64,000 nt of DNA. Origin: Paraphysoderma sedebokerense. Taxonomy: Eukaryota; Blastocladiomycota; Physodermatomycetes; Physodermatales; Physodermataceae. The stretch spans positions 33,541 to 97,540 of the forward strand of contig JAHLJZ010000086.1 of the NCBI GenBank assembly GCA_025602915.1. The letters are read 5' to 3'. The translations under genes were made by a program, and so were the position numbers. The notes under the pieces were generated by a model. The model saw only the letters and a program-made list of their open reading frames with translations, did not search any database and was not told where the DNA came from. This document shows, one piece after another, positions 3,284 through 63,596 of the stretch; position 1 is the first letter of the stretch, and the number at the start of each line of letters is the position of its first letter.

Positions 3284-6200
3284 ATGGACCTTCTTCTCCA
3301 AGGTATGGCAGCACATTTATTTCACTGAATTATTAAAATTACTATAGTTGTGGAGTAAGCGCAATAAGCTATAATGAAGATTGGGTTACTCATCCATTAT
3401 AACTTCTCATTCAACAGAGGCTGGTGTAACTGTACAGACTCAGGATGCTGCGAAGGAGATAAAGAGTGATGCAAAGAATTTAAATGACGACCTTCCTCCA
3501 AATTGGAAGAAGGCTACATCCTCCAACGGAAAAGTTTATTACTTCAACAAACTGACCAGAGAAACACGTTGGGAGCGACCAGTGGAAAATTCCATGACCA
3601 TCGTTATTTCGGAAAAGGTAATACATGAATGCAACCAGAAGTCAACAGAAATTTCATTAACTAGTTTTCTGCCAGTCTTCTGCATCACTTTCTGGTAGCA
3701 ATTATGTAGCGACTAACACATCAGCAACCAGTATGAGTAGCATTGGTCCTGGCGAAAGCTTACCAAAGTCAACCAGTTTAGACTCTTGCCATTCCTTGCC
3801 ACCCCCACCTGAGGACGGAATCGCTTCAAATGTAACGAAATTGCTGTTCTTATTATTTCAAACTTTTTTGCGAGCTAACTTGTCGATACAGAGCCATTCT
3901 AGAAGGTCATCCATCAACCACGAGAGTAACCGTCAAACCTCAGAATTATCCATAGCCAATACTAGAAGGAAGTCTGTAGCACCAATGATACCTACTCTTG
4001 TTGAAGCTGAAAAATTACCGCCACCTTCAGTCAGCCCTGTTGCCGCCGACCCAACCCCCTTATTAACGACTACCGACAAAACGACTGAAACACAAAGCAC
4101 ACCTTCAGAGCCGGTGGCCTCTGTCTCTGAAAAGGTGGACGACACACAAGATTTGCAATCTCCGCCGACACTTTCTGTTGTGAACGAAAAAGTTGAAGCT
4201 TCGGTTTGTATTGGCAGCTTTCTCTGTGATAAGACGACGTTGTAATCTTTCATTGATATTGCGTAGAATCCGGAAACAGAATTCCCAACATCAAATAACA
4301 CGAGCAACAGTCCGAAAAAAATCTCTTCTATCATCAACTCCCTTCAATCGGAAGTATCCAAATCCGAAGATCAAATACGCGAGGAGAAAAAAGCACAGAG
4401 ATTGTCCACCAACATTGCTGCACGAATTTCGGAATTCTCCACTATTGTAGAGACATCAAGACCCAGCACAGGCGGCAGTCCATCGGCGACTCCGCGCCCT
4501 TTAAGCGGTGTATTCAAAATGGCACAGGAAAACGTTGTTAATACAGCCAATTCCCCAGCTCAGTTAAATGTTCCTGTGTCCTCTGCAAGACCTCGCGGTC
4601 CTTCTGTGTCAATGAATAAATTCAACAGTCCGTCCGCGACACCGGATCCGCAAGGAAGCCGTAGTGATAATGCCACCCCGAAGAATCGCAGTAGGGGTGC
4701 CTCTGTGGCTAGAACATCTTCACCTTTAAATCCAGGAGGTGACTTTATTTCAGAATTAGCCTCCAAATTACAGATGCCGACACCTCCGCAAATGTCTCGA
4801 AGTGGAAGTAATGCAACAACTATTCCGGAATCAAGTGATAGCTCTTCTATCAAACGCAGTGGAAGTGGATATAGCGAAGATTCGGCAAACGCGAATGGGG
4901 ACCCGTCAGTTTTCACTGTTGAGTTCTCAGATGACACAATTTTGGTTAGTGTTCAATTTCTTCCTACTGGGTTTATCAAAAAACTTATCGATAAGTTCTT
5001 CGAATTAGTGTTTTCCATCACTAGATCCAAGTCGGGTCCGCCTTCATGGAAACTTGAGTCTTAAAAGCCCGGATAACTCCCCAAAAAAGAATTTTGTCAA
5101 GTGGACACCATGTTATGCGATACTTTACAATGCCACCTTCCTTCTTATGAAAGAGAATCCCTTCAAAAATAAAGTACGTAACGGGGTTGAATCTTATTTG
5201 ACTGTCATTGTAGCCTTATATTCACCATGTTATGCAGAAAGCCAAAGGTTTCGGTATCGTCGACCTTGTTAATGCATCGATTGAAGTCGCCACTCGAAAT
5301 GTCACCAAAAAGTCAAATGCCTTTGTCATTTCGTTTAGCGAGAATACTGTAGATTTGATCCTTATGGCTGAAAATGATGCTTCGATGAAGGAATGGATCC
5401 GTCAAACCCGTTCAGACATAAATGCGAGAGGGGACTCGGAGTTACGGGAGTTTTATATGGGTTTTGTGCGTGGAAGGGCACCCCCAACTGCCAAGGAAGT
5501 CAGTAGCTCAAAGCCCCCGAAAGAAAATTCAAAGGAGGCTAGTAGCACCAGCTCCCCAAAACCAACGAAAGAGCCACCTAAAGAGAAGGAAGGGGGATTT
5601 AGCTTCTTCGGCCGCAAAAAAAGTAATTATTTATTAATTCACGTAATGTTGCGATTTTGAACTTACAATGGGATTATAGCGACGAAGGAGAAACCGGACA
5701 CGAAGAAGAAGCCCAGTTCAAAACCGAGCGATCCAAACGCGGATATTGAAACTAAACTCAACGAATTCCTTGAAAATCGACCCGACATTGATAAGCTCCA
5801 CGAAGCAGGCATTATTCCACAAGATTTAATCTTCGGGGGCAAATTAGAGCTACAATATACGAGAACAAAAGCTGTTCCGAATATTATTCAGGTGTGTACC
5901 GGCATTGTAGAGGCAAAAGGACAAGAGGTGGAGGGCATATATCGATTGAGCGGTAATAATTCAAACATCCAAAGAATGCGAGTGATGTTCAACCAAGGTC
6001 CGTAAATTATTCAGCCGATCAGCATATTGCGTGAAAATGACTAATGAATTATATAGGAGAGGAGGGTCAAATTGATTGGAGTGGCCAGTCTTTGACAGAT
6101 ATCAACGTTGTTACCGGACTTCTGAAGCTTTACTTCAGAGAATTGGAAGTGTCGCTTATCCCGACTGCGTTTTACGAGCCTCTTCTACAAATTGCGAAAA

Positions 6201-6481
6201 CCCCTGGTGCGACTTCCGCCGATAAGGTGACGAAAATGGCGAAAGTTTTAAAACCTCTCCCAGAAGCTCACAAAGTTGTATTGAAGTTTCTGCTTCAACA
6301 TCTAAAATTAGTGTCCACATGGGCGGAGAAGACAAAAATGGACGTTGGTAACCTGGCAATTGTTTTTGCCCCCACTTTGCTAAAGCCGCCCGTGGAGAAA
6401 ATAGAACTCGTGATGATGAACACTCAATATCTGAATTCTATAATGGAAGAGATGATAAACAGCTGGGATAAGTTATTTTAA
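3284..6481 (+). CDS. RhoGAP paralogue A: WW - coiled coil - PH - RhoGAP
   Basis: GTPase-activating protein for Rho-family GTPases, expected at membrane or cortex. Exon 1 (ATG at 3284, MDLLLQ) splices to [10 protein letters not shown] near 3420. Next comes a WW domain with both tryptophans ([17 protein letters not shown] then TRETRWERP, 3493-3579). A Ser/Pro-rich region and a charged coiled coil follow (about 4330-4450), then SRPSTGG-type low complexity. A split PH domain begins at [10 protein letters not shown] (about 5.0 kb), ends exon-wise at NPFKNK (5173), and resumes at 5238 to finish with the helix tryptophan in [10 protein letters not shown]. The RhoGAP domain starts near 5836 (FGGKLELQY), has the arginine finger in GIYRLSGNN and the conserved [11 protein letters not shown]. 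This is the most canonical of four local copies. The start is supported by the matching first exon of copy B. Confidence 0.9.
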
Positions 6482-6830
6482 ACTATTTATTTAGAGAACT
6501 TATAGTTGTATCAATATGAATAAATGAATATATCAAGTTTTTATTTCCTTAATTTTATATGTAACCTGCGTAATCCTGTGTTCAATCTCGCTCAGTCTAG
6601 TTTTGTCCCGTCTCGAGATAGGTGACGTGGCTCTCCTCCCACTGCCGCAACAATCGAACACGAAATTCATCGCTGAAGTGTTCCACTCCTTATTCCTGAA
6701 TAATTTAGCTTTCTATATTCTAGTAATATCTATTAGCAATCTACCATCGTTTTCAGCACTCACACATACAGCTGTCCCGCGACGGAAACAATTGAAGGAC
6801 ATCAACAGCGACCTCGAAGAGTGAACCTTC
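6482..6830. other. Intergenic region A-B
   Basis: AT-rich 3' flank of RhoGAP A and 5' flank of RhoGAP B. An open frame at 6603-6824 has no recognisable content. No gene seen. Confidence 0.5.
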
Positions 6831-9391
6831 ATGGATGCAATACTGGAGCATGAGATGAATATGCTTCTGCAAGGTCTGTCAGCGAAGAATATTAAATGTT
6901 ACATGAATATATTGAACTTCAATGCAACCATATGTGTTCCTCCTCGTGCCTGTATTTTATGACAAAGTTGCACGCATTAACCCCAACTTTCTTTTTCTTA
7001 AGCAGAAGCGGAGCAAGTTGCGATAAACCCAGGAGTCGCATCTAACGATTCAGAATTACCGAAAGGATGGTTCTCAGCGACGACGCCGGAAGGGAAGGTA
7101 TATTACTATAATACAGAGACTCAGGAGTCACGTTGGGACAAACCGTCTATGCCGAAAGTAAGGGCGTTCGTTTTGTTCGAGAAATAGTTCGTCAGAATTA
7201 ACATTGGTTTGTAAGCAACCGTCAAATTATGTAGCAGGTAGTAGCTCCCAGCAATCTTTTCGAGCTTCTGGTACAGTCCGTGGAACTTCCTTTTCCAACC
7301 CTGCAAAAATTACAGATGCGGTCGACCCTGCAGTTAATGCGACGTCTGGTGCTAATATGCCAACAAAGAAACCGCCTATGCCGAACAAATTGCGAGCTCT
7401 TCCTGCTACTTCAAGCCCGAATACGTATACATCAGTTCGAGAAAGTTCACCAACGCTCAAAATTACCCCATCAATACAACAGGCATTCACAACACAATCC
7501 TCTCCGTCAAACGCCATTATTGCTCCTGGGAGGTCGATTTCTGACGCAAGTACATACACAGGAAGCATCGACGGCAAGTCAAAGTTAACTATCAACACCA
7601 CTATCGAAACGAATATTCTCACGAGCGCCTCACACCTTGCTCCACAGAAATCGGCGCCTTCAGCATTCTATGGCACCGGAGCGCCTTTAAGTTCAAGTAG
7701 TACCCAGCTTTTCAAGCGTTCGTCGGCAGAGTCATTGAATTCGAGTGCACTCGATGAGCAGGCAAGGAAAAGAGTCGAATCAGCTCCTATAAACGCACAC
7801 ATGAACATGAAGAGTGAGTTACGGTCTAAAGTCGGCGTAGAACCCATCGGTCGAAATACGACGCAACAAGCTCGAATACAGGATGTTCAGCAGGAAAGGG
7901 TGCTTACTAGAAGCGATTCGTCACTTTCCACTGATCTTGAAGGTGGTACATTCACCTTGAGTAGGCAAACACACATATTTTCAATGATCTTTGACGAGAA
8001 AACCACTCTAGTATGTAATTTCGAATTTGTCTTAGCCAATTGTATATCCCCCTAACTCATGATTGCCATAGACGCTGTCCGCGCTTGATCCCAAACTCAT
8101 TCGTTGTCATGGATACCTAACCATGAAAATATTGAAAACCAATGAATCGGACAAATCGGTCTCTAATTACGTTCCTTTTTATATCATCTTATATTTCGGG
8201 CTTTTAATTTTTTTCAGAGAACCGCCGTTTAAAACCAAAGTAATTTGTTCCCCCCGCAAAATGTTTGTTAAACCTATGTTAACTTCCATTTCGTATGTGA
8301 TTACAGAAACCCAAGGGTATTGGAATTATCGATATCGCCCAATCCTCCGTCGAACCAGCCACAGTCAACCATACCAACAGAAAGTATGGAATAGTAATCC
8401 GTACTCCAGCCAACGTAGAAATTATATTCACTTGTGGAACTGAGAACGATCGAAATGAGTGGATAAAGCGGATACGGGCGGATATTGCCGATCGAGGAAA
8501 GGAGCATTACAGGTTTGTTTCACAAGTTTTACATAATACGATGCGGAAAATGCAATTACTAATAGCAATCTCAGCGACTACCTTACTGGTTTTGTGAATA
8601 CTTCGCCACAAGAAAGTCGCACCTTCGGCTCTGTTCTCGGATTGCGAAGAGGTACATAGTGAATACAGTTTTGACAGAATTACTCTATACACAGGCTGAA
8701 CCATTTACTTCTCTTTTGTTTAGCTGAATCGAGTCAGAATTCTCTGTTAAGTGATAACAGGGATAAATCGAAAGACTCACTTGAACCTGTTTTCGGTGGA
8801 ACATTAGACACTTTATATAAGCGAAGCAAACAAATTCCTGTGGTGGTCGAAGTTTGTGCGAAGCTAATCGAAACGAAAGGGAAAGACGTTGTCGGTATAT
8901 ATCGTCACTCAAGCGACAGGGAGGTAATTACCCGACTGCGAGGAGTATTTAATCACGGTGAAGAAACGACTGTTAATTGGATGCAGGAGGTTTTTAAAGA
9001 TATTAACGTCGCCGCAGATTTGTTAAAGTTATTTTTTTGGGAATTGCAAATGCCATTAATTCCGGTATCTTCGCATGATGAACTTCTACAGTTAGCGAAA
9101 ACCCCCGGCATTTCTATTCCGGAGAGAATTGCGCGTATATCGGGCCTTTTTTCTGAATACTCCGAGTCGCATCGTGTCGTTCTTCGCTATCTACTGCGGC
9201 ATTTAACTAATGTAGCAAAGTGTAGCGACAAGAACGACATGGATATTAAGAACTTGGCCGCTGTGTTTGCGCCTATCCTCTTGAAGTTTGATTTAGAGCA
9301 GACGCGGAGGCATAACATTGATCGGGACTACGCCCAGCTGAATTTAATGGAGTTTATGATTACACATTTTGATAAGCTTTTGCCAACCTAA
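6831..9391 (+). CDS. RhoGAP paralogue B: WW - PH - RhoGAP
   Basis: Second tandem copy of the RhoGAP family. Exon 1 is 6831-6873 and ends MNMLLQ; exon 2 begins at 7006 with EAEQVAI, so the junction MxLLQ/EA is the same as in copy A. The WW domain is LPKGWFSATTPEGKVYYY then ESRWDKP (about 7058-7150). A Ser/Pro-rich linker follows from about 7219. The PH domain spans exons from 8072 (TLSALDPKLIRCHGYLTM) and 8307 (PKGIGIIDIAQS), ending in NDRNEWIKRIRADI. The RhoGAP domain (8784-9391) starts VFGGTLDTLY. Its finger region reads GIYRHSSDRE: the arginine is kept but the usual SG after it is SS. NLAAVFAPILL is intact. The intron that splits the GAP domain after the FNxG motif in A, C and D is absent here. 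Confidence 0.9.
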
Positions 9392-9513
9392 TATTATGTA
9401 CTATTTGATGTAAATTACAATTCATTAATAAATTAACAGACGCACGCAATTGGATCAGTTTATGCAAAAAGAAACTTTAATTTTATCTGGAATTCAGAGA
9501 AACATATAATGGT

Positions 9514-11339
9514 TTATATTTTCAATTCCTCACAATAATTTATCATGTCTTCTACCAAACAATTTAGCGGCACGACGAGTTCCTGCGGAATTTTTGCTTC
9601 ACTTTCGTTGTCATCCGGTCTTATCAGCAACGGAGTGAATATCGCCGCAAGATTGCTTGTTTCCATTCTCGTTCGCTCATGCCAAGTTGAAACAGCCTTC
9701 AAATGCAAAAGTATAAATTTTAGAACTACTTTATGCGATTCTGGCAAGTCCTTCAGTATCGCAGACAGCTTTTCTATTCTTTCATTCACTGGCAAGCCAC
9801 GGGTCGAACTTAAACCTACCAATTTATCGTAACTTTCACATGGTATTACCGCAATTTTGAGGTCCTTGAAGTAACTCTTCACTAAGCCTGGGACAATGTG
9901 AAGATCATCGAACATTTCCGCATTCCACTTTATTTTTATTTCATCCCCTAGTCAAAGAATGTTGATCAGGGTGCAAAATGGAATAAGATGACTTAAAATC
10001 CGTTTACCTCGATTGAACATTTCCTTCATCTTAGCCATCCGCAAGTTGCTACCAGATAGCCTGTAGATACCAATAATTTCTTTACCTCTTATATCCAAGA
10101 GGCTGGTGCATACTGTTAAAACCGTCGGAACTCGTCGATACTTAGCATAATAGTCCTCTAGTACACCACCGAACATGGCATCGGGTGGTGGACCAGCCTT
10201 TTCTCGTTTTGTAAGAATGCTTGGTCTTGAAATGAACATGGATAATCTTGACCTTATGGTGCCGTGTTCGGGATTTTCGGATTCTAGTTATTGGTGAAGT
10301 CAGCACTGATGCAAAAGAATGGTACGAAACATTGCTGGCAATACTAACTCGACCGAGTAGCCACTATTTTTAATGTGTCAGTGGAGCTTCCGCGAGGTAA
10401 TCCTCCCTTTCGAACATCTGCCTTGTTTAACCTTTCCTGGGACGACGCAGTTCGACGGTGGTCATCCGTTGAAGAGTTGTGTTGCCCGTTATCAGAGTAT
10501 TCCGATATTGATGACGGAATATTCCCTAAGCTACCTCCGCGAATTTCCGACTGGTCAACCAAGTTCTGGTTTCTTTGTAGTAATTTCATTTTCAACTCTG
10601 AAATTACATCGTTCATTTCATAATCATCTTTTGTTGCATGCCTACTCTTGGAGGAGATACGCCTGGAAAGAGAGAGGACAGGAGAATGCAGACGTGAAAC
10701 TGGACTACTAGAAGTCCCTCCCATTCTTTCGTCGCTGTCTGGTTTACCTATTGGTAGAAGCCTGAAAGAATTAGCTTTTTGAAGTGGTCTCTTTTGATTT
10801 GCTCCACTATCGCTGCCTTCGAAAAGATGTGGGCTTTTTAAAGGAGACTTTTTAGGCCGCTCAACGGGTGGTGAGCTGACTGGAACGTCAGCAAGCTTCA
10901 ATAAAGAGGGGCGGACGACTGTGTCGTCTGGCGGTTTGCTTTTACCTATGATATAGTGAGCATCTCTGGAGCCACTATTTGCTTCTGCGGAGCGCAACTA
11001 CAAAAAAGCATGGCTTAGAATTGTCAATTTATACCCAACGGGCAACGGAAGCGATACTAACTTCATGCTTTTTCTGGGGTACGGTTGTCATGGATAGGGA
11101 TTGAGACAAGCCATTCCCGCCTTCGGCCTTCTGAAATGTATTTAGCACAGAAACAAGCGGCGTCAATGCTGATATCGGCGAAATCTGGGGCGCTTTGTCT
11201 AAGTTACTAACTGTTGGAATCTGAATTTGCATCTGTAGTTGAAGATACGGAGGTCTGAGTGTTTGCTGGTTTTGCAGTATACAGAGAGAAGATACTAAAC
11301 CTGAGCTGGCTGCTCCTCTGGGCCTTCAACTGTCGACAT
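9514..11339 (-). CDS. RhoGAP paralogue C: RhoGAP only, WW and PH missing
   Basis: Inverted member of the RhoGAP cluster. The ATG at 11339 gives MSTVEGPEEQPAQ, then an exon with LRPPYLQLQMQIQIP (about 11255-11060), then a Ser-rich exon (10997-10350) carrying MNDVISELKMKLLQRN. A 65-nt intron (GTTAGT donor, CTGAC branch-like site, TAG acceptor) leads to the linker exon and the GAP domain: MFGGVLEDYYAKYRRVPTV, then the arginine finger in GIYRLSGSNLRM and MFNRG. The last exon (9915-9514) has LHIVPGLVKSYFKDL, SHKVVLKFILLHLKAVSTWH and NLAAIFTPLLI, so the GAP is probably active. No WW or PH domain can be read on this strand. Convergent with copy B, only 122 bp away. Confidence 0.87.
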
Positions 11340-12383
11340 AATTCTCTATTTCCTGAAACCTAGAAGTAGCTACTTTTCAGAAATATCTTTATAGCGAACT
11401 CGCTGTGATTGCTTTGGTCTCTTTTTTTTTGAATCTTCATTCTTCACGCATTTTCGTGCTCTATTGTGGCGATTGACGTTTGACATTCACAGTCATTTCG
11501 CGATTGTACGACTCGGTCGAGAGTCGAGACTCTCAAGAATCAAACATTAAAATTAACACTGTCTACAATTCCACAGATGCATTAGCTTTGGAGTATAACC
11601 CCACAGAGCTACATAACCTCCCAATGAAAACATAAAAATGATTAGGTTGCAACACCTACATCTGAGTGCGGCCATGGTGAGACTGAGTGATTGTGGGAGG
11701 GACGGCTCGATTTTCAAGATTCAAAATACAGGTTTTCTGCCCGCGGTATCGCATATACTATCTCACCAATAAGTGAAAATATAGTAACATGAATTGGTAG
11801 AATTATCTTCGTGTATTTGAGAAAGTATCCGAAAGCAACCATGCTATAAACCAGATCTGCATATATCAGTAAGACCTGTCCCATCGAGAACACGCTCAAT
11901 CTAGACACATGATTGACCGAAGACAGATTTTCCGCCGACTAAAATTACATACATTCCCACAATTCTGTACTGTTAATAACTAGTATTAGTTTTAATTTGA
12001 TCATGGAATGCACTGATCATTGAGCGGAGTTCAAAAGAAGAAATCCCCCATATGAATTCGGCTATTTCGCGTATTCGACGGACACACTGAGTAGTACGAG
12101 AACGCAAATCTACCGCATTTAAATTCGCCTTATCAGGACTTAACCATACGTATGATGTTTATTTTATTTCAAGTAGATAGAGTTCAACGGTATTTCTTAA
12201 ATTGTCTGAAATCTGATTTCTTTTCATCTGATATGGATGACACCTCGTAAAATGCTACACGCCGTACACGAAATTTTTCCTCGAACCCCCAGAACGAAAT
12301 CCCTTAATGCGACTTGTAATCAATTCTTTTTATATACTTGTGTCTTTTTGCAAATACTAACACTACGCTACCCATAAACCCAG
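11340..12383. other. Divergent region between RhoGAP C and D; possible minus-strand exons
   Basis: About 1 kb between divergent genes. On the minus strand the stretch 11714-11942 follows a TTTTAG acceptor-like site and encodes a hydrophobic peptide with two possible membrane segments (MGQVLLIYADLVYSMVAFG, then LPIHVTIFSLIGEIVYAIP) and a stop. Further upstream, 12150-12000 on the same strand reads a second coding-like frame (TTQCVRRIREIAEFIWGISS). No start or family was found. It may be an unannotated small membrane protein or chance frames. Confidence 0.3.
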
Positions 12384-15315
12384 ATGAGCAAAACTGTGCC
12401 TCCGAAAGGTATCCTTATCCCGTCTCTTGTTTTTGCTGTCCTCTCACCGTCTCGAATTCTGTCTTTAAACTGAACCTAACTTATTCGTAGGAGTGAATGT
12501 TGCGGCATCACCTGCGTCACCTACACAGAGCACCGAAAAGCAAATGTTGAAGTTACCAGAGCGACCAAAGAAACCATCTAAGTTGAATACTGTACGTATT
12601 GTTGAGTAATGAAGACACATGAAGACTTAGAAAAGTGACCCAGCTTTTTAATAGAGCCATACAATAAATTCAGCGACTTCGACTCCATCTAATGTATCTA
12701 CTGAATCTTTGGACGTTTTTAATATTTTGGAAGACTACAATGAGGGTAAAACTGTCAGAAGTAAGTCTGCATATTGACCACACTACTCCCCGAAAAATCG
12801 GTAACCTAACGACGAATATTGAAGCTACACAACCCATAAAGGTCCTTAACGATCCTGTAAAACAGGAAAAGTCAGAACCGACGTCTGCTACGAAATCTAG
12901 ATTCACCAATCTTTTTCGAAATGGATCGTTCAAGAAGATTGAGGCACAGTCTGACAAACCGGTATGTTATGCAAGAAAATAAATATTCGTCTATATATTT
13001 ATCATTAATTAACTCCAAACTCTATGGGAATGAAGAATAATGACAATCCAACAGAAAAGACTGACAACCTTCCGACATCTATAAAAGTGGGGTTGACACG
13101 GCAGGAAACTCAACCCCAGCGCAATTCTTTCCCCGTTGCCGCCCCTCGAAGTTCCGTCTTACATAGTCCACACTCACATTTTCCATCCTCCGCATTGATG
13201 GCAGAGCTAAATTCCAGATTACTGGGTAGAAAAACTGACAACTCGCAATCATCATCGGCTTCCGATGCAGTGTCAACCGATTCTCGCAAACCGGACGATG
13301 TTTACGCTTTAAATTCCAAGATAAAAACGCGGGTCAGTCCGAATAGATATAGCGTTGCACGGGACGATAGGTCCGATAGTCAAAGCGACAATGGATCTGT
13401 TTACCATACACCGGGAACAGGAACACCCAACAGACTTTCGCGACATACTGATAGTACCCACAGTAACTATGAATCCCCAAAGACAATGACACCTCAAAAC
13501 AGTCAAATGATTCCGGGCAAGACAAGAGATGAATCAACATTAGATAGAATTAAACATATTTTGCCATCCTCGTCTTCGAGTGTGCTGTTTGACCGCCCGA
13601 AAACTGATTCCTTGGGTCGTCAAAGTACTGTCGCTCAAGTGATGCCAGACACTAGCGACGACCATCAAGATATCTTCACCGGCTTATTCGAAGATGATGC
13701 ATCCCTTGTTAGTAAAATTTCCTATTTAATCCTAACTCTGCCTCCAAATTATTGACTTTATGTCATTAGAAATTAACTGCCCTTGACCAGTCCTTGCTAC
13801 GCCATCACGGCCCCTTAAATATGAAAGTTATTCTTAATTCCAAGAAAAAAGCAATGCAGAGCTGGTCCCAATACTACATCTTCCTTTATTTTGGCCTGTT
13901 TATATGCTTTAAAGAAAATCCATACAAAGCAAAGGTCTGAATTTTGGCAGCTTGTAAATGCAAACTTGGCGAAGGCTAACCGTTGGCTTATCTGAATAGA
14001 AACCTAGGGGTATCGGGATCATTGACATTGCTAAAGCCACTATAGATACTGCCGGACCGATTCAAACTAAACGAAAATTTGCGTTTATACTCACTACCGA
14101 CAAAGATCAAGAACTTATCTTCCAGGCAGCAGATGAGAATGATATGAATGCGTGGATTAAACACATAACCGATGATATCACTGTCCGAGGGGACCAAGAA
14201 TGGGAAACCTATTTGCCGACCTCTTGGAAACTAAAACAGCAGTTATCAGAGTTACCAATAAATCAAGATGCTCAGGCATCAGGCACCAAAGATCCGCTAT
14301 TGCAATCTCGCTCCAGTTCCTCATCACTCAAAGAATCACTCAATCTGTCATCGAGCACGGAATTTTCGCAGAAGTGGTCCAGAAGGAGTACAGGTGCGTC
14401 TGTTCGAAATCTTGAGCAGCTCAATTGGCATACTGCGGACTTAGCATTATTATTAACATCGCCGCATTTAATTTGTGTAGATTCCAAACCTAAATTGAGT
14501 TTACTTGCCAAGGGTAGTTCCAAAGCGGATGTTGAAGAACCAAAGTCACCCAGTTTAGTGTTTGGAGGATACCTCGACGCGCAGTACATGAAAACCAACC
14601 ACATACCAACAGTTTTGGAAGTATGCACCAAATTGGTGGAGTTAAAGTGCAAAGATGTTCCCGAATTATATAACTTGAGTGGAAATCACGCGAGAATAGC
14701 TAATCTAAAAAAACTAATCAATGATGGTTCGTTATTTTCGATCACTTTAAATTTGATTTTCAAAGTCTTGCTTTTTTAGCTTCCCAATGAATCATTTTTC
14801 AGCCTATGTTTCTCTCACTAACTCAACTCACTGCATTCATACGTACAGGGGATGATTCTAAAATTAACTGGAACGCCGAAATTAGCGAAGATATAAAAGT
14901 TATAACTGGTTTGATTAAAGATTACTTCAAAGATTTGCCTACCCCGTTAATACCATGCGAACTGTATACTCCCTTACTTCGACTTTACAAAAACTCCGAC
15001 ATCCCCCCGTCAGAACGACAAATACGATTATCAAATATTATGTGTCATTTGACCGTTGCGCATCGGTTAGTGTTGAAATTCATTTTAGCTCATCTTAAAG
15101 TTGTTTCATCGTGGCATGAAAAAACGTTGCAAGACTCCCATGATTTAGCTGTCGTGTTTGCTGGATTATTCGTCAGACTAAATATGATGCAAGACGCTGC
15201 AAGTGCTGCGAATGGAGATGGATCTGTTGCGCCCGAAGGGACAGAAGTAGATTCAGTGGTGATTATTACAATCGTGGAAGAGTTGATAATGAATTACGAT
15301 CAGATATTAATATAA
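12384..15315 (+). CDS. RhoGAP paralogue D: PH - degenerate RhoGAP (probable pseudo-GAP)
   Basis: Fourth cluster member. Exon 1 (12384-12408, MSKTVPPK) joins a Pro/Lys-rich exon at 12491; no WW domain is visible. A Ser-rich middle carries SSALMAELNSRLLGRK, matching motifs in A and C. The PH domain runs from about 13772 (KLTALDQSLLRHHGPLNM) through YYIFLYFGLFICFKENPY and RGIGIIDIAKATID to the helix tryptophan in NDMNAWIKHI. The GAP fold begins VFGGYLDAQYMKTNHIPTV, but the arginine-finger site reads ELYNLSGN (Asn instead of Arg, codon 14672-14674). The later NLAxVFAP signature reads DLAVVFAGLF. With both catalytic signatures changed, Rho binding without GTPase stimulation is likely (inference). 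The reading frame is otherwise intact, so it is not an obvious pseudogene. Confidence 0.88.
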
Positions 15316-15705
15316 TTAGCAGCCGTGTTGGAGGGGTAATTGATATTGTGTCGTTTCTTTCTTCTTTCGCATACAATGTTATATTACATAGTTTGTCAAT
15401 TTGCCATGTATTATTTAATTTGTATAGATAGCTTCAAATTCTGTCATTTTCAAACGCTTCTTTTCCCTACCTTAGTAAAAGGAAGCTGCCGAATCGAGAA
15501 TAGTGTTCCACTACAGTACTAGCAAGCTGTGTTTGTCACAAAACCTTCCAGGTCCAATGAAATTTGAAGACAAATATACAATCCACAATGAAATTATGCG
15601 AAACCTTTTTTAAGACTTCATAGATTCGTACACCTATTTGAACGTCGATAAAACAAACATCAGTCCAAAATAATTCGCAGTTATTAAAGAGGACGGAGCA
15701 GCGCT
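15316..15705. other. Convergent intergenic region
   Basis: AT-rich 3' flank between RhoGAP D and the carrier gene. No gene seen. Confidence 0.5.
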
Positions 15706-30615: not shown

Positions 30616-31730
30616 ATGCCAGCTCATCTAGAAGACAGGTTTGTTCTTTTGCTTTCTTTGTATCGAATAATATGAGGGTGAAATGGTATCGTCGGTAAAG
30701 ATTGCTGACGATTAATGACATGTCATACCAAAACTGCTGATTATCAATTGATAAAATTTCTATTAACTTGCGCCTCATTACGTATACCATAATAGATTTA
30801 CACTTCGACAAATTCCCGGTTATACTGGCTACATCCCACGCTCAAAAGAACACATCGGGAAATCGTTCAGAGTAGTAACTTCAGCAGCTTTGGAGGATTT
30901 CGCAAGGATCATTCAGAAAAAGGATACTCTTCCTCCCAGATTACAGAATTTTAAAAACAATGGGTACAATGCAATGAGTTCAATTTCTGCTCCAGAAAAA
31001 GGACGAAGTAATGCGATTTCTGAAGCTCCATTTAAAACCAAAAATCGCATTCCGATCGACGATAAAGCATTTGTTAATGGGTACACAGGTAATGTCAGAC
31101 ATTTTATATATCTTTCTCTGTGTAGGTCGTTCTGGGATATCTAATTTTGGTTTGTATAACACACTGTATTTAAATAGGGTACATTCCACACTTGAGAAAT
31201 CATTTCGGTGAACACTACACCGTTTCCACTAAACGAGCCATGGAGGAATGGAAGTCTGAAACAAAACGACGAGAACAGTCTAAACAAGCTGCAGTTCCTC
31301 TTTCTTTTGACGGCGATAAGCTTACACTGAACCTAAATGGGCTTACGAAACCCGAAAAGAAAGTTGAAAAGCAGCAGAAATCAAAAAACATTCCTGGTAT
31401 GATTCGATATTGCTTCTCGCAGTTCAAATCATAATAGTTATCTGTGTATTTGTCTCTTTAACAGCATTTCTCTCGTTTGATTTCCTCAAACGTTTAGGAT
31501 ATACTGGCTTCACTACGCGGTCGGCGATATGCAACCCAATTGGAGAGACGACAGCTGACGGATTACCAAAAAAAGAGCTCGCTAAGAATCTGCCGATCCC
31601 TGGATATAAGGGGAAAATTCCACTTTATCAATTTACAGGAAACAAGAGTTATGGCGTTACTTGTAAACAGTGTATTGAAACTTTCACGTATGAGATTGTA
31701 GGTCGCAAGAAACCAGTAGTTGAAAAGTAA
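30616..31730 (+). CDS. CIMIP2/FAM166-like ciliary microtubule inner protein
   Basis: Predicted axonemal protein lining doublet microtubules. Four exons: 30616-30638, 30796-31088, 31178-31396 and 31498-31730. Start MPAHLEDRFTLRQ. Four GYTG-type units mark the family: IPGYTGYIPRSKEHIGKSF, VNGYTGYIPHLRNHFGEHY, IPGYTGFTTRS and IPGYKGKIPLYQF. Each is split by or sits close to an intron with the same phase, which confirms the joins. The linkers are Lys-rich. Proteins of this type occur only where cilia or flagella occur, so the host should make flagellated zoospores or gametes (inference). Confidence 0.85.
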
Positions 31731-41200: not shown

Positions 41201-41601
41201 TCGCATCCCCATCCCAAACGACCCCCGCGGATCCCACAACCGCTTCCGTCACAACTACAACGACAACCACCGTCCGAAGAACATACAGTACCAAACGAGC
41301 CGGTCGAAAAGCACTATGGCATCGAATATCCCGCAGTGAATTCCATTTCCCCGATGAAGTCGTTACGTTTGTGAAAGGTGAAAATGGTGAATTAAAGTTA
41401 GAACAATCCCACGGTTCCACCCACCCACATAATTCTAGTTCGACTACCGATGATGCAAGTGTAAAGGAAAAAGAAATAAGGGGGAAATATAAATTGTTGA
41501 CTCCGGATTCTAAAGAAGTGATTAGAGGATTGTTATCTAGGAAAGCGAGTGAACGATGGGGTGTCAAGGAAATAAGAGAATGTAAATGGTTGAATAGTTG
41601 A
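38281..41601 (+). CDS. Ser/Thr protein kinase with N-terminal SFFSNPF repeat array
   Basis: Three exons: 38281-40254, 40344-40515 and 40583-41601. Roughly 600 N-terminal residues are Ser/Thr-rich and disordered; they include a HSHSHSHSHSD run and an NPF array (listed separately). The catalytic domain starts near 40081: LDDYTVLKTLGVGSFSKVRL (glycine loop), LVALKMISKKG (ATP lysine), HPNIVKLHEVID, YLHRSNVCHRDLKLENILL (HRD), LIVTDFGLARRL (DFG) and EEYSSPEIITG, then DFWSLGVVVYALIVGWLPF. All catalytic residues are present. A Ser/Thr/Pro insertion of about 130 residues sits between the WSLGV helix and the C-terminal RGLLSRKASERWGVKEI. This is CAMK-group-like; the exact family is unresolved. Confidence 0.88.
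38872..39372 (+). repeat. SFFxNPF repeat array in the kinase gene
   Basis: Six NPF units in the order RTSSFFSNPF, KTGSFFSNPF, KTSSFFSNPF, KNSSFFGNPF, KTSSFFTNPF and NSVFSNPF. They are separated by 20-60 residue Ser/Asn/Lys/Glu linkers. Flanking degenerate units read NSFFSSFSSP before the array, and SSSFFAKAF and KTSSFFSRF after it. NPF is the core ligand of EH domains. Confidence 0.85.
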
Positions 41602-54833: not shown

Positions 54834-56824
54834 ATGTCTCGATTGCTCCGCTCATCGACTATGTCGAGCCTCCTCGTCAACCTTCGTGGAGCCAGGGCAA
54901 CCCATTTCAATGGATTAGCCGTCCGGAGTTTCAGTATTTCCAGTCTCAAATATCAAGCACAAACAGTTGCTGAAAAACCAAAAGGTAATGGACAGAGAAT
55001 TGATCTACCGATGCTGCGAGAGTACCAGTAGAGTTAAGCCCGATTTTAGCGGCTTCGGTACTAACCTCATCTCGGAGTGCTTTTTGCAGAGCTGTAAACT
55101 AACCTAGCCCTTTCACCTCATTACAGCACCCTCGCTCGGATTTACTGCGACTAGTTCACCGTTAGGTGACCCTGCAGATTCTGTTACCCTCCCTCATGAA
55201 GAAGCAGCATCCGATAAAAGACCGATATATATGGATTTTCAGGCTACCACCCCTGTCGATCCGAGAGTTGTAGATAAAATGATTCCATATTTTACTACTT
55301 ACTTCGGGAACCCCCATTCTCGTACACATCAATTTGGTTGGGAGTCGGAAGCTGCAGTTGAGACCGCTCGATCTCAAATTGCAAACCTCATCAATGCAGA
55401 TCCAAAAGAAATCATATTTACCAGTGGGGCGACGGAATCAAATAATATCGCAGTTAAAGGCGTGGCCAGATTTTACCGAAAGGCAAAGTCTCGAAGAAAG
55501 GACGGAAAAGAAGTCAAACAAAAGAATCACATTATCACAACCCAGACAGAACATAAGTGTGTTCTTGATTCCTGCCGGTCATTGCAGGATGAAGGGTTTG
55601 AAGTCACTTATTTACCGGTTGATAAGCATGGAATCGTCAATATCAAGGACTTGGAAAATGCCATCAAAGCAGAAACAGTCCTCGTCAGCGTCATGGCTGT
55701 GAATAATGAAATTGGTGTCATCCAGCCGATTGAAGAAATTGGTAATTTATTCACTGCTACATCATTTAAGATTTCTTATGTCTGAACTCTTCATTTTTTA
55801 GGGCGAATTACCCGAGCCAATAATGTTTTCTTCCACACTGATGCTGCTCAAGCTGTTGGAAAGATTCCAATAGATGTTAACAAAGCAAATATTGATTTGT
55901 TATCCATCTCCGGTCACAAGATCTACGGTCCTAAAGGTATCGGCGCCATATACGTTAGACGCAGACCTAGGGTTCGGCTCGAACCTATCATCAGCGGAGG
56001 CGGGCAAGAACGTGGGCTCAGAAGCGGAACTGTCCCAACTCCTTTAGTCGTTGGTTTAGGAGAAGCCTGCCGGATTGCTGCCGAAGAGATGGAGGTAGGT
56101 TTAGTGTTTTTATAAATTGATCTCTATGATGATAGATTTGCAAGGTCGTTCATTGTGAATGGCTCCTAATGCCTGCTCGCTTCCCTCCACATGGAGGTCC
56201 CGAGGTGGGCATGATGTCGACTGTTTTGCAGGGAAACTGAGAGACGGCACCATTACATAATATTCGACACTTATAACAAGTCACGACATTGGAATGCTGA
56301 CTAACTGGTAATTTTACTCTTTAGTACGATCACAAACGCATCTCGCATTTAGCAAACCTCTTTCTATCCAAAGTCGAAGGAAAGCTTCCTCACATTATCC
56401 GCAATGGCCATCCAGAGAAATCGTATCCCGGCTGCATTAATCTTTCTTTCGGTTACGTTGAAGGCGAATCACTCCTGATGGGATTGAAGGATGTCGCATT
56501 ATCGTCTGGATCCGCCTGCACTAGTGCATCCTTAGAACCAAGCTACGTTTTGCGTGCCTTGGGTGCCGATGAAGATATGGCCCATAGTAGTATTCGATTT
56601 GGTATTGGAAGATTTACAACAGAAGAAGAAGTTGAATGGGTTGCTGATGAAGTCATTAAAGTTGTCGAGAAGTTGCGAGAGATGAGTCCTTTATGGGAGA
56701 TGGTCCAAGAGGGTAAGTGTTGCGCCTTATCAAGCGGATTTACAGGTATTTCTATTCGCTGACTCTTGTCCGACTGTATAATTTAGGCGTCGATCTTAAG
56801 TCAATCCAGTGGACCCAACATTAA
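54834..56824 (+). CDS. NFS1: Mitochondrial cysteine desulfurase Nfs1
   Basis: PLP enzyme supplying sulfur for iron-sulfur clusters and tRNA thiolation. Exon 1 (54834-54984) is a mitochondrial presequence ([20 protein letters not shown]). From exon 2 (55127) the mature enzyme reads [95 protein letters not shown] and [17 protein letters not shown]. The PLP lysine is in [19 protein letters not shown], and the catalytic cysteine in [19 protein letters not shown] 230-nt intron interrupts EEME/YDHKR. The last exon ([12 protein letters not shown]) ends at 56824 and matches the eukaryotic C-terminus. Confidence 0.95.
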
Positions 56825-57192: not shown

Positions 57193-58075
57193 ATGGTGTA
57201 TGTCAGTGCGAATGGCAAGTTTATCTTCTTTTCGGCGAATGGTCATTTCTTAAATTTGGCGCTGCCCTTAGCAAGTCTTTTATTCATTTCAATACAAGGT
57301 TTTCGAATGAATATGTTTAATTGATGGCAGTAATTTTAATGAGATAGCTTTTGCTCGTATTGCTTCTGTTCTTCCCGACTCATACTTGTCAGTTGTCACT
57401 GCCTTGAATCGTCCATCCTTTCTTCCGTGCAATTTGGCTGACTTGAATTATTTTGCTAATGTACTGAAAAACCTTTCCTTCATATAATTGCGTTACTATC
57501 AAATTAAATAGGATCTCTGCAACAAACTCAGTCCCGGTTAACTGTTTCATATTGGGTCGCCACATTTTGGTCAATTGTGAATTTCTTTTCGCTGTTCTTT
57601 TCTTCACTTATAAATGTAAGTATGACAGCATATTTATATTCTCTGGATGCGTTACTCTTAGGACAATCCGAAGGAGCGTAGCGATTGAAGGTGGATTTTG
57701 GGATGTTTCGTAAATCGATGAGCCAGTCATAGCGCGGAAATACAATTATTTTACCTAGCTCATCTGAGATTCTGTTGTACTTTCGTGTGGCTATTGACCG
57801 ATGACTGTGCACATATTTTAGCATAACTGATTGTTGTTTATATTATTTTTCGTTTAGCCTGGAAGCATTAATCGACCTGCAGCAAGAAACACAGGTCATC
57901 GGAAAGGAGGAGGTGGACCTTACAATCCGTACGGCGGCGGTGGTGGTGGTAAACGTTTAGGAAGAATAAGCCATGGTGAGTGTTCCCTCTATCTGATGCC
58001 TTTAGTGCTCAGTTTTAACCATTTGAGTGTTATTCAGCCGGTTCGTGCTCGCTTCCTGCTGCCGGGTGAGGTTAA
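57193..58075 (+). CDS. SELENOK: Selenoprotein K with in-frame TGA (selenocysteine) codon
   Basis: Small ER-membrane selenoprotein linked in animals to ER-associated degradation and protein palmitoylation. Four exons: 57193-57214, 57512-57615, 57858-57975 and 58038-58075. They give 93 residues if TGA is read as Sec, matching the usual length of about 94. MVYVSANGS is the family N-terminus. The single membrane helix is VATFWSIVNFFSLFFSSLI. The cytosolic part is Gly/Pro/Arg-rich (RKGGGGPYNPYGGGG) and contains KRLGRISH, matching the family RMGRIxH motif. The last exon ends PAAG-Sec-G-stop, with TGA at 58067-58069, GGT, then TAA. In SelK the Sec is also near-terminal within a G-U-G context. Intron 1 uses a GC donor. 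A SECIS-like hairpin lies downstream. Confidence 0.88.
57215..57511 (+). other. GC-AG intron in SELENOK
   Basis: The donor GCAAGT follows AATG and the acceptor is AAATAG. Removing it joins MVYVSAN to GSLQQTQSRL in frame and leads to the conserved membrane helix. Reading through ends at a stop after about 40 codons without family features. Confidence 0.75.
58067..58069 (+). other. TGA codon, probable selenocysteine insertion site
   Basis: In-frame TGA followed by GGT and TAA. Its position, two codons before the true stop and preceded by Ala-Gly, matches the selenoprotein K C-terminus. If it were a plain stop, the protein would lack only Sec-Gly, so translation evidence is needed. Confidence 0.75.
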
Positions 58076-58194
58076 TTTTCTCCGTATGTATGTACGGAGA
58101 TAAAAGACTATCATAAGCGAACAGTTTGAAGGAAATTCGTAAGCCTGCTTTTGGATACCAAGTCGCCCAATGAACTTGGCGTCTCAAGGATTAC

Positions 58195-58255
58195 TTCTAG
58201 TGATGCAGACTGTCTGAAAGTTTATAGACAGTTTGGCGGATTTTGCTCCCTAGAG
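58195..58255 (+). promoter_or_regulatory. Candidate SECIS element in the SELENOK 3' UTR
   Basis: Hairpin about 130 nt after the TGA. Basal helix TTCTAG (58195-58200) pairs with CTAGAG (58250-58255). The quartet is TGAT (58201-58204) facing GGAT (58238-58241), allowing tandem G-A pairs. The upper helix CAGACTGTCT (58206-58215) pairs with AGACAGTTTG (58226-58235) over ten base pairs, one a G-U. The apical loop GAAAGTTTAT begins with an unpaired A-run, as in type I SECIS. The 5' internal loop is unusually short. Found by eye, not by a covariance search. Confidence 0.65.
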
Positions 58256-58948
58256 CTGTTCGTTGTACAAAAGATTAATAATTATTAATGGTATTCTATA
58301 TTTGAAGTGTTAAATTGAAACTTTTTCGGCTAATTTGATCTATGCCGCCATGAAATTTTGCGATTCCTTCGAGATCGCCGTTATTATTTAACGGACGAAA
58401 AACTCATTGTGAATTGAAAACCCTATACAGTTCAGTCATTGAAATATTGCATAGGTCTGGCGATAGAAATGAAAACACTTGTGAGAGGAAATTTTCCTGA
58501 TTTTCACAGATCGTCACGTAAGGACATAAGTTTGCAAAGGGCCAAAAGCTTGAACAGATACCAGAGAATCAATCATTACACACATAAACATTCCAGGCAC
58601 CGCGATCATTATATCGAATAAAACTTTTACACATCTCAGACACATCCAGATTGAAGGGAGTCCTCGAAGAACCATTGCTCTGTAAATTGGAGAAACCTTC
58701 GCGCCATGTCTTCGTTGCGCCGGTATATATGAAGACGCATATGTTCCGAATTAAAAAAGAAATTATAAATGTTACTGCCTCTAAATGTATGTTCTGAATC
58801 TCAGAATGTGAGAGTGTGCATTCAAAGGTTATAATTGAGGTTTTCCGAACAAGATCACTAAGGAAGCGTGGCCAAATTGCTACAAAATGTAAAAACCAAT
58901 TCCTTCTAAAATCCTACACCGTTAGATCGCATCAAAAGAAATATCACA
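58256..58948. other. Intergenic region SELENOK-metaxin
   Basis: About 690 bp. An open frame at 58439-58621 has no recognisable content. It holds the end of the SELENOK 3' UTR and the metaxin promoter. Confidence 0.45.
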
Positions 58949-60818
58949 ATGCCGTCGGAACTCTATTGCTGGCCTCCGCTCTCGGGGGCATCTTCTGTGG
59001 ACTTGCCCTCTTGGGACCCTTTTTGCCTTACTGTGCAGGTACTGTGTCTTCTTGTACACTCAAATATCTATGGAGGTTTGAGTTGAGTTTTCAACTCTGA
59101 GGAACTAATTCTTCTCCAAAAATGTTTAGACTCTCCTTCTATTCACAAACACTCCCTTCGTTATCACTCCGACAACTGACCCTGATATCTCTCCGTCTGG
59201 TACCCTTCCTGTGCTCCGGGATGATTTACAAGTTGTTGGCGGGGTCCATCGTATAATTGATTACCTCCGCCGAAATGGATTTACAAAATTGCTAGAAGGT
59301 GAACCTGGTGCACCAGATGCTTTATCTAGCAAGGATCCAAAATGGGCTGACATGATCGGGTAAGCAGTCGATAGATCTTTGTAGTTTCTGTTTCGTCATG
59401 TCTAGAACAGTTTTCTTTTTTTGCTGTTGTTTGCTTCGATGCATTTTTAACCCACTCGCTGATTTGTCAACTTACCCCATTTTAATCAACAAAGATGCAT
59501 TTCTATGGTGGAAGATAAACTTTATGATATAATGGTATGATATTAATTTATATGATTTGCTCCGTCTTAAATCTTAACCGATTCGTTGCGTTCCGTGTCA
59601 CTTTCGCCAACACAGCAATATATCCATCATGTGTCGCCTACGTTTTCATCGTCTGCACATCAAATATATGCCTCGCAAATCTCTTTCCTTCGCTCGCTTT
59701 CATTCTATAAATCGGCCAAGAATAACGCTATTGCGAGACTGAATAAACGTAGCGATTGGAGTTGGGTCACTGGCAAAAAGACTAAACCTGTTGTTCGGGC
59801 CACGGAAAGCCCAATGAAAGCTCCTTCGTTATCAGCATCTACATCATTTGGAAAGATAGAGGCTGCTCCAGGAATGGTAGTAATCGGAAGTGATCCTGAA
59901 GTTTGCAGGTGGACGGACGAAGACGTAATGTTTTGCTACGAACCTTTAATTTTCAGGAAAGTTATCATATTAACATCGGTTCACAAACTACTATAGGTTT
60001 TTGCGGTAGCCCGACAGACATACAAAACCCTATCTTCACTGCTCTCCGACAACTCTTATTATTTTGGATCCGAACCGACAGTACTTGATGCCTTCGTTTT
60101 CGGGCATTTGGCGTTACATTATTATCCCGTTCTTTCTGCTGCCAATTCCGCTCCTGACGTCACTGATTCTACCAGATCAGTTCCTTCTTCTCCTGATTCT
60201 AGAGCGGCAACACCAACACCAACTTCTCCTGACACATTGCGGTCAATTCTTGAGGCTGAATTTCCATCCTTGGTGTCATACCTGGAAAGAATTCATTCTC
60301 AATATTTTACAAAATCCAATCAATCTTTCGTGATCGCTACTTCTTCATTATCAATCTTACCTTCCTCTCCAAACTCTCTTTCTCGATCCTTCCCGACAAT
60401 TTCACCAGCAGCAATTATTGATTCTCTTCGTAATTTTCAATTACCGTCGATTGATTCCGTTCGCTCTAGTATTACTTCGCTCCCGACTTCTATCCGCACG
60501 TACTATGCCAATCTCCGTTCATTCCGATATTCAGGGGAACAACCAAACGGTTGGAAGGCAAGGGTACAAAGAATTTGGAGACAAGATGTCACTCAGTCAA
60601 TAATGACCGTTTTAACTGGTGTTGGTGTATTGATAGTTTACATCAACATCGTAAAACGAGCGGAGATGAGAAAGGTTCAGGGTCTGCTGGAAGAAATTCA
60701 GCAAGGTGAAGCAGGTGATGGCAGAGGAGGTGAGAGGGATCGCGGTGTCAGTGCTAGAGATGCCAACAATGACATGGTTGATGTCAGCGGAGATATGGAT
60801 TGGGATGACGACGAGTAG
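58949..60818 (+). CDS. SAM37: Metaxin / Sam37 (Tom37), mitochondrial outer-membrane sorting subunit
   Basis: Peripheral subunit of the SAM complex that inserts beta-barrel proteins. Exon 1 (58949-59038) has the metaxin N-terminus MPSELYCWPPLSGASSVDLP. Exon 2 (from 59130) continues the thioredoxin-like half: TLLLFTNTPFVITPTTDPDI, SPSGTLPVLRDDLQVVGGVH and RIIDYLRRNGF. The helical half contains QISFLRSLSFYKSAKN (about 59.7 kb) and the signature GSEPTVLDAFVFGHLALHYY (about 60.05-60.13 kb), reached after short introns. The C-terminal exon is Ser/Pro-rich, then has a membrane-like segment (SIMTVLTGVGVLIVYINIV) followed by a charged tail. Outer-membrane anchoring through this segment is inference. 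The domain order fits fungal Sam37 and animal metaxin 1. Confidence 0.85.
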
Positions 60819-61022: not shown

Positions 61023-63596
61023 TTATAGCTTTGACTTTCCACCGCTACCAACAGGTGCTGAATTTTTGCCGTCAAATGTAGCAAAAGCGGAACGCTTGTA
61101 GAACGGGTGCTGTTATGTACAAAAAAGAATAACGTAATACGTTAGAAATGTTGCCACTATGGTGTCAATTCAATACTCATCTTGATAATTTATCTCCCTC
61201 ATAGGCAACACTGCGCTTTTTGATGAATGAAAATAAGTCAAACCTTATCAATAACAGTTGGCAATTCCCCTTTCTTTCCGCCGTCCTGCTTTTCTTTTCG
61301 ATTTTCCTCTCGATATTCCATTGGCAAATAACTTCTTTTTCCTTCTCCAGTGTATATTTGGCGAGGTCTCCATATTTGTAATTTATCTTCTGATAAATGC
61401 TCAACCCAATGCGCCAACCATCCGGCAATACGTGGGATTGCGAAGAGAACAGGGAAAAAGTCAAGAGGGAAACCTGATGATTGGCGAGAATTGGAAGGCC
61501 ATGCGTTAGCATAGAAAAATGGGAACCGAGTAAGAATGCAAAGAAACGACAAATACCCATAGCTTTGTATATCAAACCACTATAAAAGTCAACATTAGGA
61601 TATAGTTTTCGTTCGATAAAATATTGGTCATTTAATGCTGCTTTTTCGAGTTCAACTGTGATCATCCAAAAAATTAGGTCAGATAAGCTGAGGCCAGTCG
61701 TGTTTTTCCTGAATTGATCTTTACCAGCCACCTCAATTAAGGGTTCTCTTCCGACAATTTCAAAAACTTCGTAAGCTACTTTTCTGATGATTTTGGCCCT
61801 TGGATCCTGTGGTTACGGCTCATCAGCAATTAAAAGTAAGCGCCTTATCTGTTTAAGCGAAGAACTTACATAATTTTTATATACTCTATGACCGAATCCC
61901 ATGAGCATCGCTTTCTTATTTTTGACATCTTCAATAAATTGGGGAACATTAGATGGGTGTTTAATGGACTCCAACATTCGTACAACTGCTTCATTTGCGC
62001 CACCGTGGAGAGGGCTAATTCAATTATAAAAATGCGGATGATTTATAACGGTTCGAGTAAAGGCTTCCTGAACGAAACACGGGCTTACCCATATAATGCT
62101 GCAGCGGCACCGGCGACGGCAGAATATGGATCGACGAGTGAAGAACCAATGTGTCTCATTGCAGCAGTCGAACAATTCAATTCATGATCGGCCTGTTGGT
62201 AATAATTAGTGCGTTAAATCCTCGAATTGTTTTTGACGTTGGGTTGAAGAGACTGAAACGTACGTGCAAAATGAAAAGGATATCCAAGGCTCTAGCAAGT
62301 TTTGGATTCGGTTTGTACTCGTTCTCGGATAGCCGGTCCATCATATATAAGAACATTTCGGTATATCCCATTCCATTGGGAGGATCCTGGGCATCGTGTG
62401 CGAATTAATCAGTAATTGTACAACACAAGTACAGAAATGACCAGAAAGTGAACGTGCAACATACATTATATTGTCGCCCAATCCTATGTCGGTAAGCCAT
62501 GGCGGCGACCTTTGTACAATGTGTCAGTTACCAGGTTGACGAAGTCAAGCGCAAACAACATACCGTGATACTTTTGCCCAGAAGTCGAAAAATCTGTTTG
62601 TTACGTAATCTAGAAGATTTCTGATAAATATAAGACCCTTGAAGAGAAGGATTTGCTTCGGGGTGAAATGTCGACATGGCTGATGAAAAAAACAGGTCGT
62701 CAGTGGCTGCATAAAAATGTTCAAAATGACAGAGCAAATACTTTACCAGCGATAGCTTTATATTGAAGACAGAGGAAGTGAATTTATTGGAAGAACGTAG
62801 GTTAGCAAAACTCTGATAAATTTTAGCTAATGATAAGTTCTGTCTAGGCAAACCGACCTGATATGAACATGCCCATAGGACTAAGGACGAAAAGGCAGGA
62901 CGTTAATCTATCGAAAGCAATACAGCAATTCATATGAGAAAACAGCTTACTGAGAATCATAATTAAAACTCTTCATCAATTCGGTGAATTTTGAATGGAC
63001 GAAAGTATGATGCAAGACTTCGTGTTCAAAATGCGCAAATTCGGATTTAGTTGGTAATTCCCCATAAATGAGTAAATACGCCACCTCAAGGAAAGTTGAC
63101 TTTTCTGCCAATTCCTCTATTGGATAGCCTCGGTATCGGAGAATCCCTTTCTCGCCGTCAATCTCTGTAATCTTGGAACGAGCTACTGCAGTATTTAAGT
63201 AAGACGGGTCGAAAACTCTATAACAACACGACAAGCGGCCGAAATGCCGAAGAGCGTGAGCGTTAAGACATGGGTCAATCTTATAAGGACAAACGTCGCC
63301 TACCGAATCCCTTCATCTCTTGCAACTATCTTCTGAAATTCGGTCGCTTTTATGGTTCCATCTTCAATAGGGATCTGATAGATTTTACTGGTACGGTTGT
63401 CGAGGACGGTTAACGTATCAGGCTGAGATGCATGTGGAACGACCACAAATGTCGATGGCTTAACATTATCAGTCGAGGACGAAGAAGATGCGGGAACGGG
63501 AGCTGGAATGGTCCATGACTGATTAGAGTTCGGGTCCTTCAAAATTAAATTCGCGGAATGCGTGGTCGGAGTTTGCTTATCGTTTTTCTGCCCCAT
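61023..63596 (-). CDS. CIT2: Citrate synthase with C-terminal SKL (peroxisomal type)
   Basis: Condenses acetyl-CoA and oxaloacetate. The ATG at 63596 gives [12 protein letters not shown] (an in-frame alternative lies 27 nt upstream). A Ser/Pro-rich leader precedes [19 protein letters not shown], then [40 protein letters not shown] and [16 protein letters not shown]. The next exons carry [14 protein letters not shown] (62.65 kb), [20 protein letters not shown] (62.15 kb), and the catalytic histidines in [15 protein letters not shown] and MGFGHRVYK (62.0-61.9 kb). The end reads [16 protein letters not shown] and then GSGGKSKL plus stop. SKL is a strong peroxisomal PTS1, and the N-terminus is not a typical mitochondrial presequence. 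A glyoxylate-cycle or fatty-acid-derived acetyl-CoA role is inferred. Confidence 0.92.

Follow-up and report, generated by a model that had tools for sequence, protein, structure and literature searches.

A SELENOK gene with a putative selenocysteine codon and a predicted 3' SECIS element in a eukaryote that is probably a zoosporic fungus

A 64-kb stretch of DNA, referred to here as the window, very probably carries an intact eukaryotic SELENOK (SelK) gene in which an in-frame UGA encodes selenocysteine (Sec) and a SECIS element lies in the 3' flank. A preliminary description of this locus is thereby confirmed as real and as essentially correctly read; its label of the gene as fungal is plausible, and we regard a zoosporic, early-branching fungus as the likeliest and a probable host. 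The locus usefully extends a known kind of gene and is not a new type, early-branching fungi that use Sec being few. If the host is a flagellated fungus, the locus supplies another case and a marker gene for tracing when Sec was lost, and its interest depends chiefly on whether the host proves to be a fungus other than the nine species already reported; if the host is non-fungal, Sec in SelK is ordinary.

Results

Exon structure and family membership of the SelK gene

The four exons recomputed from the sequence (Table 1) close in frame, as the preliminary description had it, and join into a product of 93 residues in which the putative Sec is residue 92. The donors of introns 1, 2 and 3 read GCAAGT, GTAAGT and GTGAGT, and the corresponding acceptors TAG, TAG and CAG. 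We rejected a GT donor 27 nt further downstream for intron 1, which adds nine residues and reduces the Pfam score from 60.7 to 52.3 bits. The stretch GCGAATGG is present twice within 57193-57260, and its second copy supplies this GT donor and the nine in-frame residues.

Table 1. Positions of the SelK gene, its predicted SECIS element and neighbouring features in the window
Feature	Position	Strand	Remarks
Class II (D, K, N type) aminoacyl-tRNA synthetase fragment	39-551	-	window edge
PH and RhoGAP fragments	5200-15400	both	RhoGAP cut-off passed by two, PH cut-off by one
FAM166/CIMIP2-like ciliary microtubule inner protein	30616-31730	+	spliced; PF10629 (CMI2B-like) 50.7 bits, cut-off 21.6, three repeats
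NFS1 mitochondrial cysteine desulfurase	54834-56824	+	directly upstream of SelK, same strand
SelK exon 1	57193-57214	+	encodes MVYVSAN plus 1 nt
SelK intron 1	57215-57511	+	297 nt, GC-AG, donor G/GCAAGT in full context
SelK exon 2	57512-57615	+	hydrophobic (membrane) segment
SelK exon 3	57858-57975	+	Gly-rich basic tail, last residues KRLGRISH
SelK exon 4	58038-58075	+	AGSCSLPAAG-U-G-stop, TAA at end
SelK in-frame TGA	58067-58069	+	putative selenocysteine codon 92
SelK TAA stop	58073-58075	+	codon 94; one Gly codon between TGA and TAA
SECIS element (predicted)	58195-58255	+	3' flank of SelK
SECIS helix I	58195-58200 / 58250-58255	+	possible, 6 bp
SECIS quartet	58201-58204 / 58238-58241	+	TGAT / GGAT
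SECIS helix II	58206-58216 / 58225-58235	+	11 pairs
SECIS apical loop	58217-58224	+	AAAGTTTA, opens with AAA
AATAAA	58617-58622	+	possible poly(A) signal
Tom37/metaxin	58949-60818	+	downstream of SelK; Pfam Tom37 60.8 bits
Citrate synthase	61177-63312	-	downstream of Tom37

The product matched the Pfam family PF10961 (SelK_SelG) at 60.7 bits (E 2.2e-16, cut-off 23.3) across profile positions 1-85 of 86. Scores fell to 55.8 bits for the variant lacking exon 4 and to 56.5 bits when intron 3 was retained, with the match in the latter case ending at residue 82. The full product thus scores approximately 5 bits above exons 1-3 alone and approximately 4 bits above the intron-retained form, and at the level of sequence similarity this match supports exon 4 as a likely part of SelK. 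Cutting the product at the TGA, by comparison, left a 91-residue form at 60.1 bits, and because only 0.6 bits are lost the family match alone is no proof of read-through.

Translation and hydropathy agree with the features first ascribed to the protein, namely an MVYVS start, one membrane helix, a Gly-rich RLGRI tail and a G-TGA-G-stop ending. Hydropathy exceeded 1.6 in a single 19-residue window (residues 23-41, mean 1.71), whereas the tail holds 15 Gly in residues 43-92 and carries a net charge of +7 from residue 43 onward. Codon 92 of 93 places the putative Sec next to the C-terminus, its usual position in SelK. The family suggests a location in the ER and a function like that of SelK proteins. 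No SelK relatives were confirmed from 106 pattern matches in viral contigs or from 591 pattern matches in genome contigs, collections that cover viruses and prokaryotes and not eukaryotes, and a comparison with the PDB returned nothing but a chance match to Nup50 (E 1.6).

Intron 3 (57976-58037, 62 nt) contains no in-frame stop, and its retention yields a 123-residue protein without Sec, which is a possible selenium-independent isoform. Were this the principal product of the gene, as the open reading frame through the 62-nt intron would allow, the protein would have a different tail and both exon 4 and the TGA would go unused. We consider such an arrangement extremely improbable, as the splice sites conform to consensus, the characteristic SelK ending would be lost, and the family match of the retained form is lower and reaches no further than residue 82.

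A predicted SECIS element in the 3' flank

Between the last base of the SelK TGA and the quartet of the predicted SECIS lie 131 nt, in line with the approximately 130 nt given previously. The TGAT/GGAT quartet and the A-rich loop of the preliminary description were recovered, the loop opening with AAA, whereas helix II comprises 11 pairs and not ten; the hairpin loop between the helix II strands reads AAAGUUUA. The GTGA is 13 nt from the AA, which in turn is 20 nt from the GA, and in a scan with the published SECISearch pattern (NTGA, 10-13 nt, AA or CC, 15-39 nt, GA; PMC2375036) the element satisfied these spacing limits. In the terms used in PMC3328465 it is a predicted form-1 SECIS of the GUGA_AA type. 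If the AATAAA downstream acts as the poly(A) signal, the SECIS would stay inside the SelK 3' UTR.

Beneath its core a eukaryotic SECIS is expected to have a helix I and an internal loop, for which PMC3328465 gives a length of 4-18 nt. When the quartet was held unpaired, the segment 58180-58268 folded with a 6-bp helix I and an 8-nt internal loop at -22.0 kcal/mol. In the free fold of the slightly shorter stretch 58185-58264 (-25.9 kcal/mol) the 5' quartet instead paired in a competing small hairpin and helix I was absent; energy rules give no credit to a non-Watson-Crick quartet. The free fold of this stretch had a z-score of -2.73, and 4 of 200 shuffles were equally stable.

To judge how readily such a hairpin arises by chance, we scanned the window together with copies of the 3' flank (58076-58948, 873 nt) shuffled by dinucleotide. 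The helix filters were of our own design and postdate the discovery of the hairpin. In an initial, permissive scan of both window strands we obtained 29 matches, the SelK hairpin being the most stable. When the full pattern was applied, requiring the quartet, at least 10 pairs in helix II, an unpaired AA and helix I, the SelK hairpin was the sole match on either window strand; a match of any quality turned up in 32 of 3000 shuffles, and an equally good one in none. Without helix I, two weaker minus-strand matches accompanied the SelK hairpin, and 80 of 3000 shuffles held a match. The SECISearch primary pattern by itself matched 1421 times on one window strand and 1463 times on the other. Once a less strict helix filter was added to this spacing, with helix I not required, 13 rows (12 distinct starts) were left, the SelK hairpin being the strongest; here 213 of 2000 shuffles gave any pass, and an equally good one was seen in 0 of 2000. 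Adherence to the spacing rules and the lack of an equal among shuffles bear out the earlier proposal of a Sec-coding TGA with a 3' SECIS.

The covariance search that had been proposed as a check went the other way. Rfam models, whose sensitivity here carries no positive control, returned no SECIS at the gathering score over the whole window, nor when E-values as high as 5 were admitted for 2 kb or as high as 10 for 161 nt. The rule-based spacing scan picked up an element where the Rfam models did not.

Probable recoding of the in-frame UGA

From the position of the UGA and the hairpin downstream we infer that the UGA is recoded. Ribosomes translating a SelK mRNA spliced from the four exons would arrive at the UGA of codon 92, where a protein of the SBP2 type, bound to the 3' UTR SECIS through the UGA/GA quartet, would bring EFSec and Sec-tRNA. 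Selenocysteine would then be inserted, followed by glycine, before the UAA, and the product would cross the membrane once and carry a basic tail rich in Gly, with Sec as the next-to-last residue of the protein. Such a mechanism implies a host that probably possesses the Sec machinery. No component of it (tRNA-Sec, EFSec, SBP2, SEPSECS or SPS2) was recognised by Pfam in the 38 scanned of the 69 listed window ORFs of at least 120 aa, and an ARAGORN search of the window under the bacterial code gave no tRNA.

The TGA could alternatively be an ordinary stop that terminates a 91-residue SelK without Sec, the hairpin being either a product of chance or a relic in a lineage that has lost Sec. The near-complete family score of the truncated form is compatible with this, as are the lack of an Rfam match and a free fold that breaks the SECIS core. 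We nevertheless judge it very unlikely: the hairpin conforms to the rules, sits where a SECIS is expected and was unequalled in shuffles, a relic should have decayed, and the succession of TGA, one Gly codon and TAA resembles other SelK ends such as the human tail.

Reassignment of TGA, for example to Trp, was also considered and is unlikely. TGG occurs 4 times in the coding exons modelled for NFS1 and 8 times in those modelled for eIF3c (the latter to 54123, with its last exon left out), and neither set has an in-frame TGA, a weak test because these models were picked to be stop-free. Across 11 stop-to-stop frames, some of which may end in introns, TAA was the terminator in eight, TAG in two and TGA in one (a kinase, 41599-41601).

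Gene neighbourhood and host lineage

SelK lies among ordinary eukaryotic genes. Besides those in Table 1, Pfam recognised eIF3c, MIS13, AAR2, a Gar1/Naf1 protein and a Cupin_8 protein; an RFC1 label given by eye to fragments at 43-45 kb was not borne out by Pfam and was discarded, as was a peroxisomal label, likewise given by eye, for the citrate synthase. The PH and RhoGAP fragments are perhaps tandem duplicates. Desulfurases can release selenium, and the adjacency of NFS1 and SelK may be due to chance.

The FAM166/CIMIP2-like match belongs to a PYG-repeat family of cilia proteins (PMC10973386), and its presence points to a host with a cilium or flagellum. The introns of the window measured 59-297 nt in 13 modelled cases, and a branch-point-like YTRAY box was found near the 3' end of nine of them, a number reached by 69 of 2000 shuffles. 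Against solved structures, eIF3c scored 443 bits with one group of chains, which we take to be mammalian, and 313 bits with another, presumably yeast; taken alone, the higher mammalian score is no argument for a fungus, and it does not separate early fungi from other lineages that evolve slowly. The closest structures to NFS1 were mitochondrial desulfurase chains that we take to be human, no fungal NFS1 being recognised in 45 rows of matches, and Tom37 weakly matched (28.9 bits) a Sam35 chain of presumably fungal source. Neither the NFS1 nor the Tom37 matches decide between a fungus and another host.

While a zoosporic early-branching fungus is the likeliest host, a true selenoprotein gene could also belong to a non-fungal eukaryote that bears a flagellum or cilia and has compact genes, such as a choanoflagellate, an ichthyosporean or another protist, with aphelids and rozellids as borderline cases. 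This we consider the less probable origin, yet one with appreciable weight. The ciliary gene would suit it, as would an eIF3c nearer to the mammalian than to the yeast chains, the occurrence of GUGA SECIS elements in sponges and algae, and the fact that no fungus-only family was recognised among the Pfam matches of the 38 ORFs scanned out of 69. Short introns and YTRAY boxes, by contrast, fit fungi, though not fungi alone.

Discussion

The key report of Sec in fungi is reportedly that of Mariotti in 2019. Sec had long been held to be lost at the root of Fungi (PMC8744743), and the preliminary statement that some early-branching fungi use it agrees with accounts of Sec machinery in nine species from three phyla, the Chytridiomycota, Zoopagomycota and Mucoromycota (PMC11378755); Harpellales make up seven of these species (PMC10386755). 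SelenoH is common to the Sec-using Harpellales (PMC12611240), and the named Sec-using fungi include Gonapodya prolifera (PMC7988114), a chytrid (PMC6572847). The claim has been contested on the ground that annotated proteomes contain no U (PMC7988114). In our view U-free proteomes are no test of fungal Sec, because annotation normally stops at UGA. A fungal SelK was not met in the passages on fungal Sec taken from these sources, and among the literature matches listed none linked selenoproteins with Rozella, aphelids, Blastocladiomycota, Monoblepharidomycetes or zoosporic fungi.

We put forward tentatively, and at somewhat under even confidence, that a zoosporic fungal lineage outside the nine species of 2019 makes selenoproteins and keeps SelK in its Sec form with an animal- or alga-like GUGA SECIS. 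Sec may then have persisted in flagellated fungi more widely than so far recorded, with its loss coming after loss of the flagellum or occurring piecemeal.

Comparison with known systems

The product resembles known SELENOK/SelK proteins in that it matches nearly the full profile, begins with MVY, has a single hydrophobic segment and a basic tail rich in Gly, and carries its putative Sec next to the C-terminus, with a predicted SECIS in the 3' flank of the gene. Its tail ends in G-U-G-stop, whereas the human SelK tail is one residue longer. Among eukaryotes that use Sec, SelK is described as one of the selenoproteins with the widest distribution (PMC2375036).

The predicted element shares with form-1 GUGA_AA SECIS elements the quartet, an 11-bp helix II, an AAA in a single apical loop and the spacing, and it differs in having no Rfam model match and in a helix I that, where it forms, abuts the core on the 5' side, the 8-nt loop lying on the 3' side only. 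G in place of A before the quartet is reported for every Ostreococcus tauri SECIS but one (PMC2375036), and GUGA_AA elements have been described in algae and account for 12 of 21 sponge elements, that of sponge SelK included (PMC3473315). If the host is a fungus, the locus shows the same trait in the same region of the tree as the Sec-using early fungi Gonapodya, Bifiguratus and the Harpellales, with the difference that SelenoH is the selenoprotein named in Harpellales and SelK the one found here.
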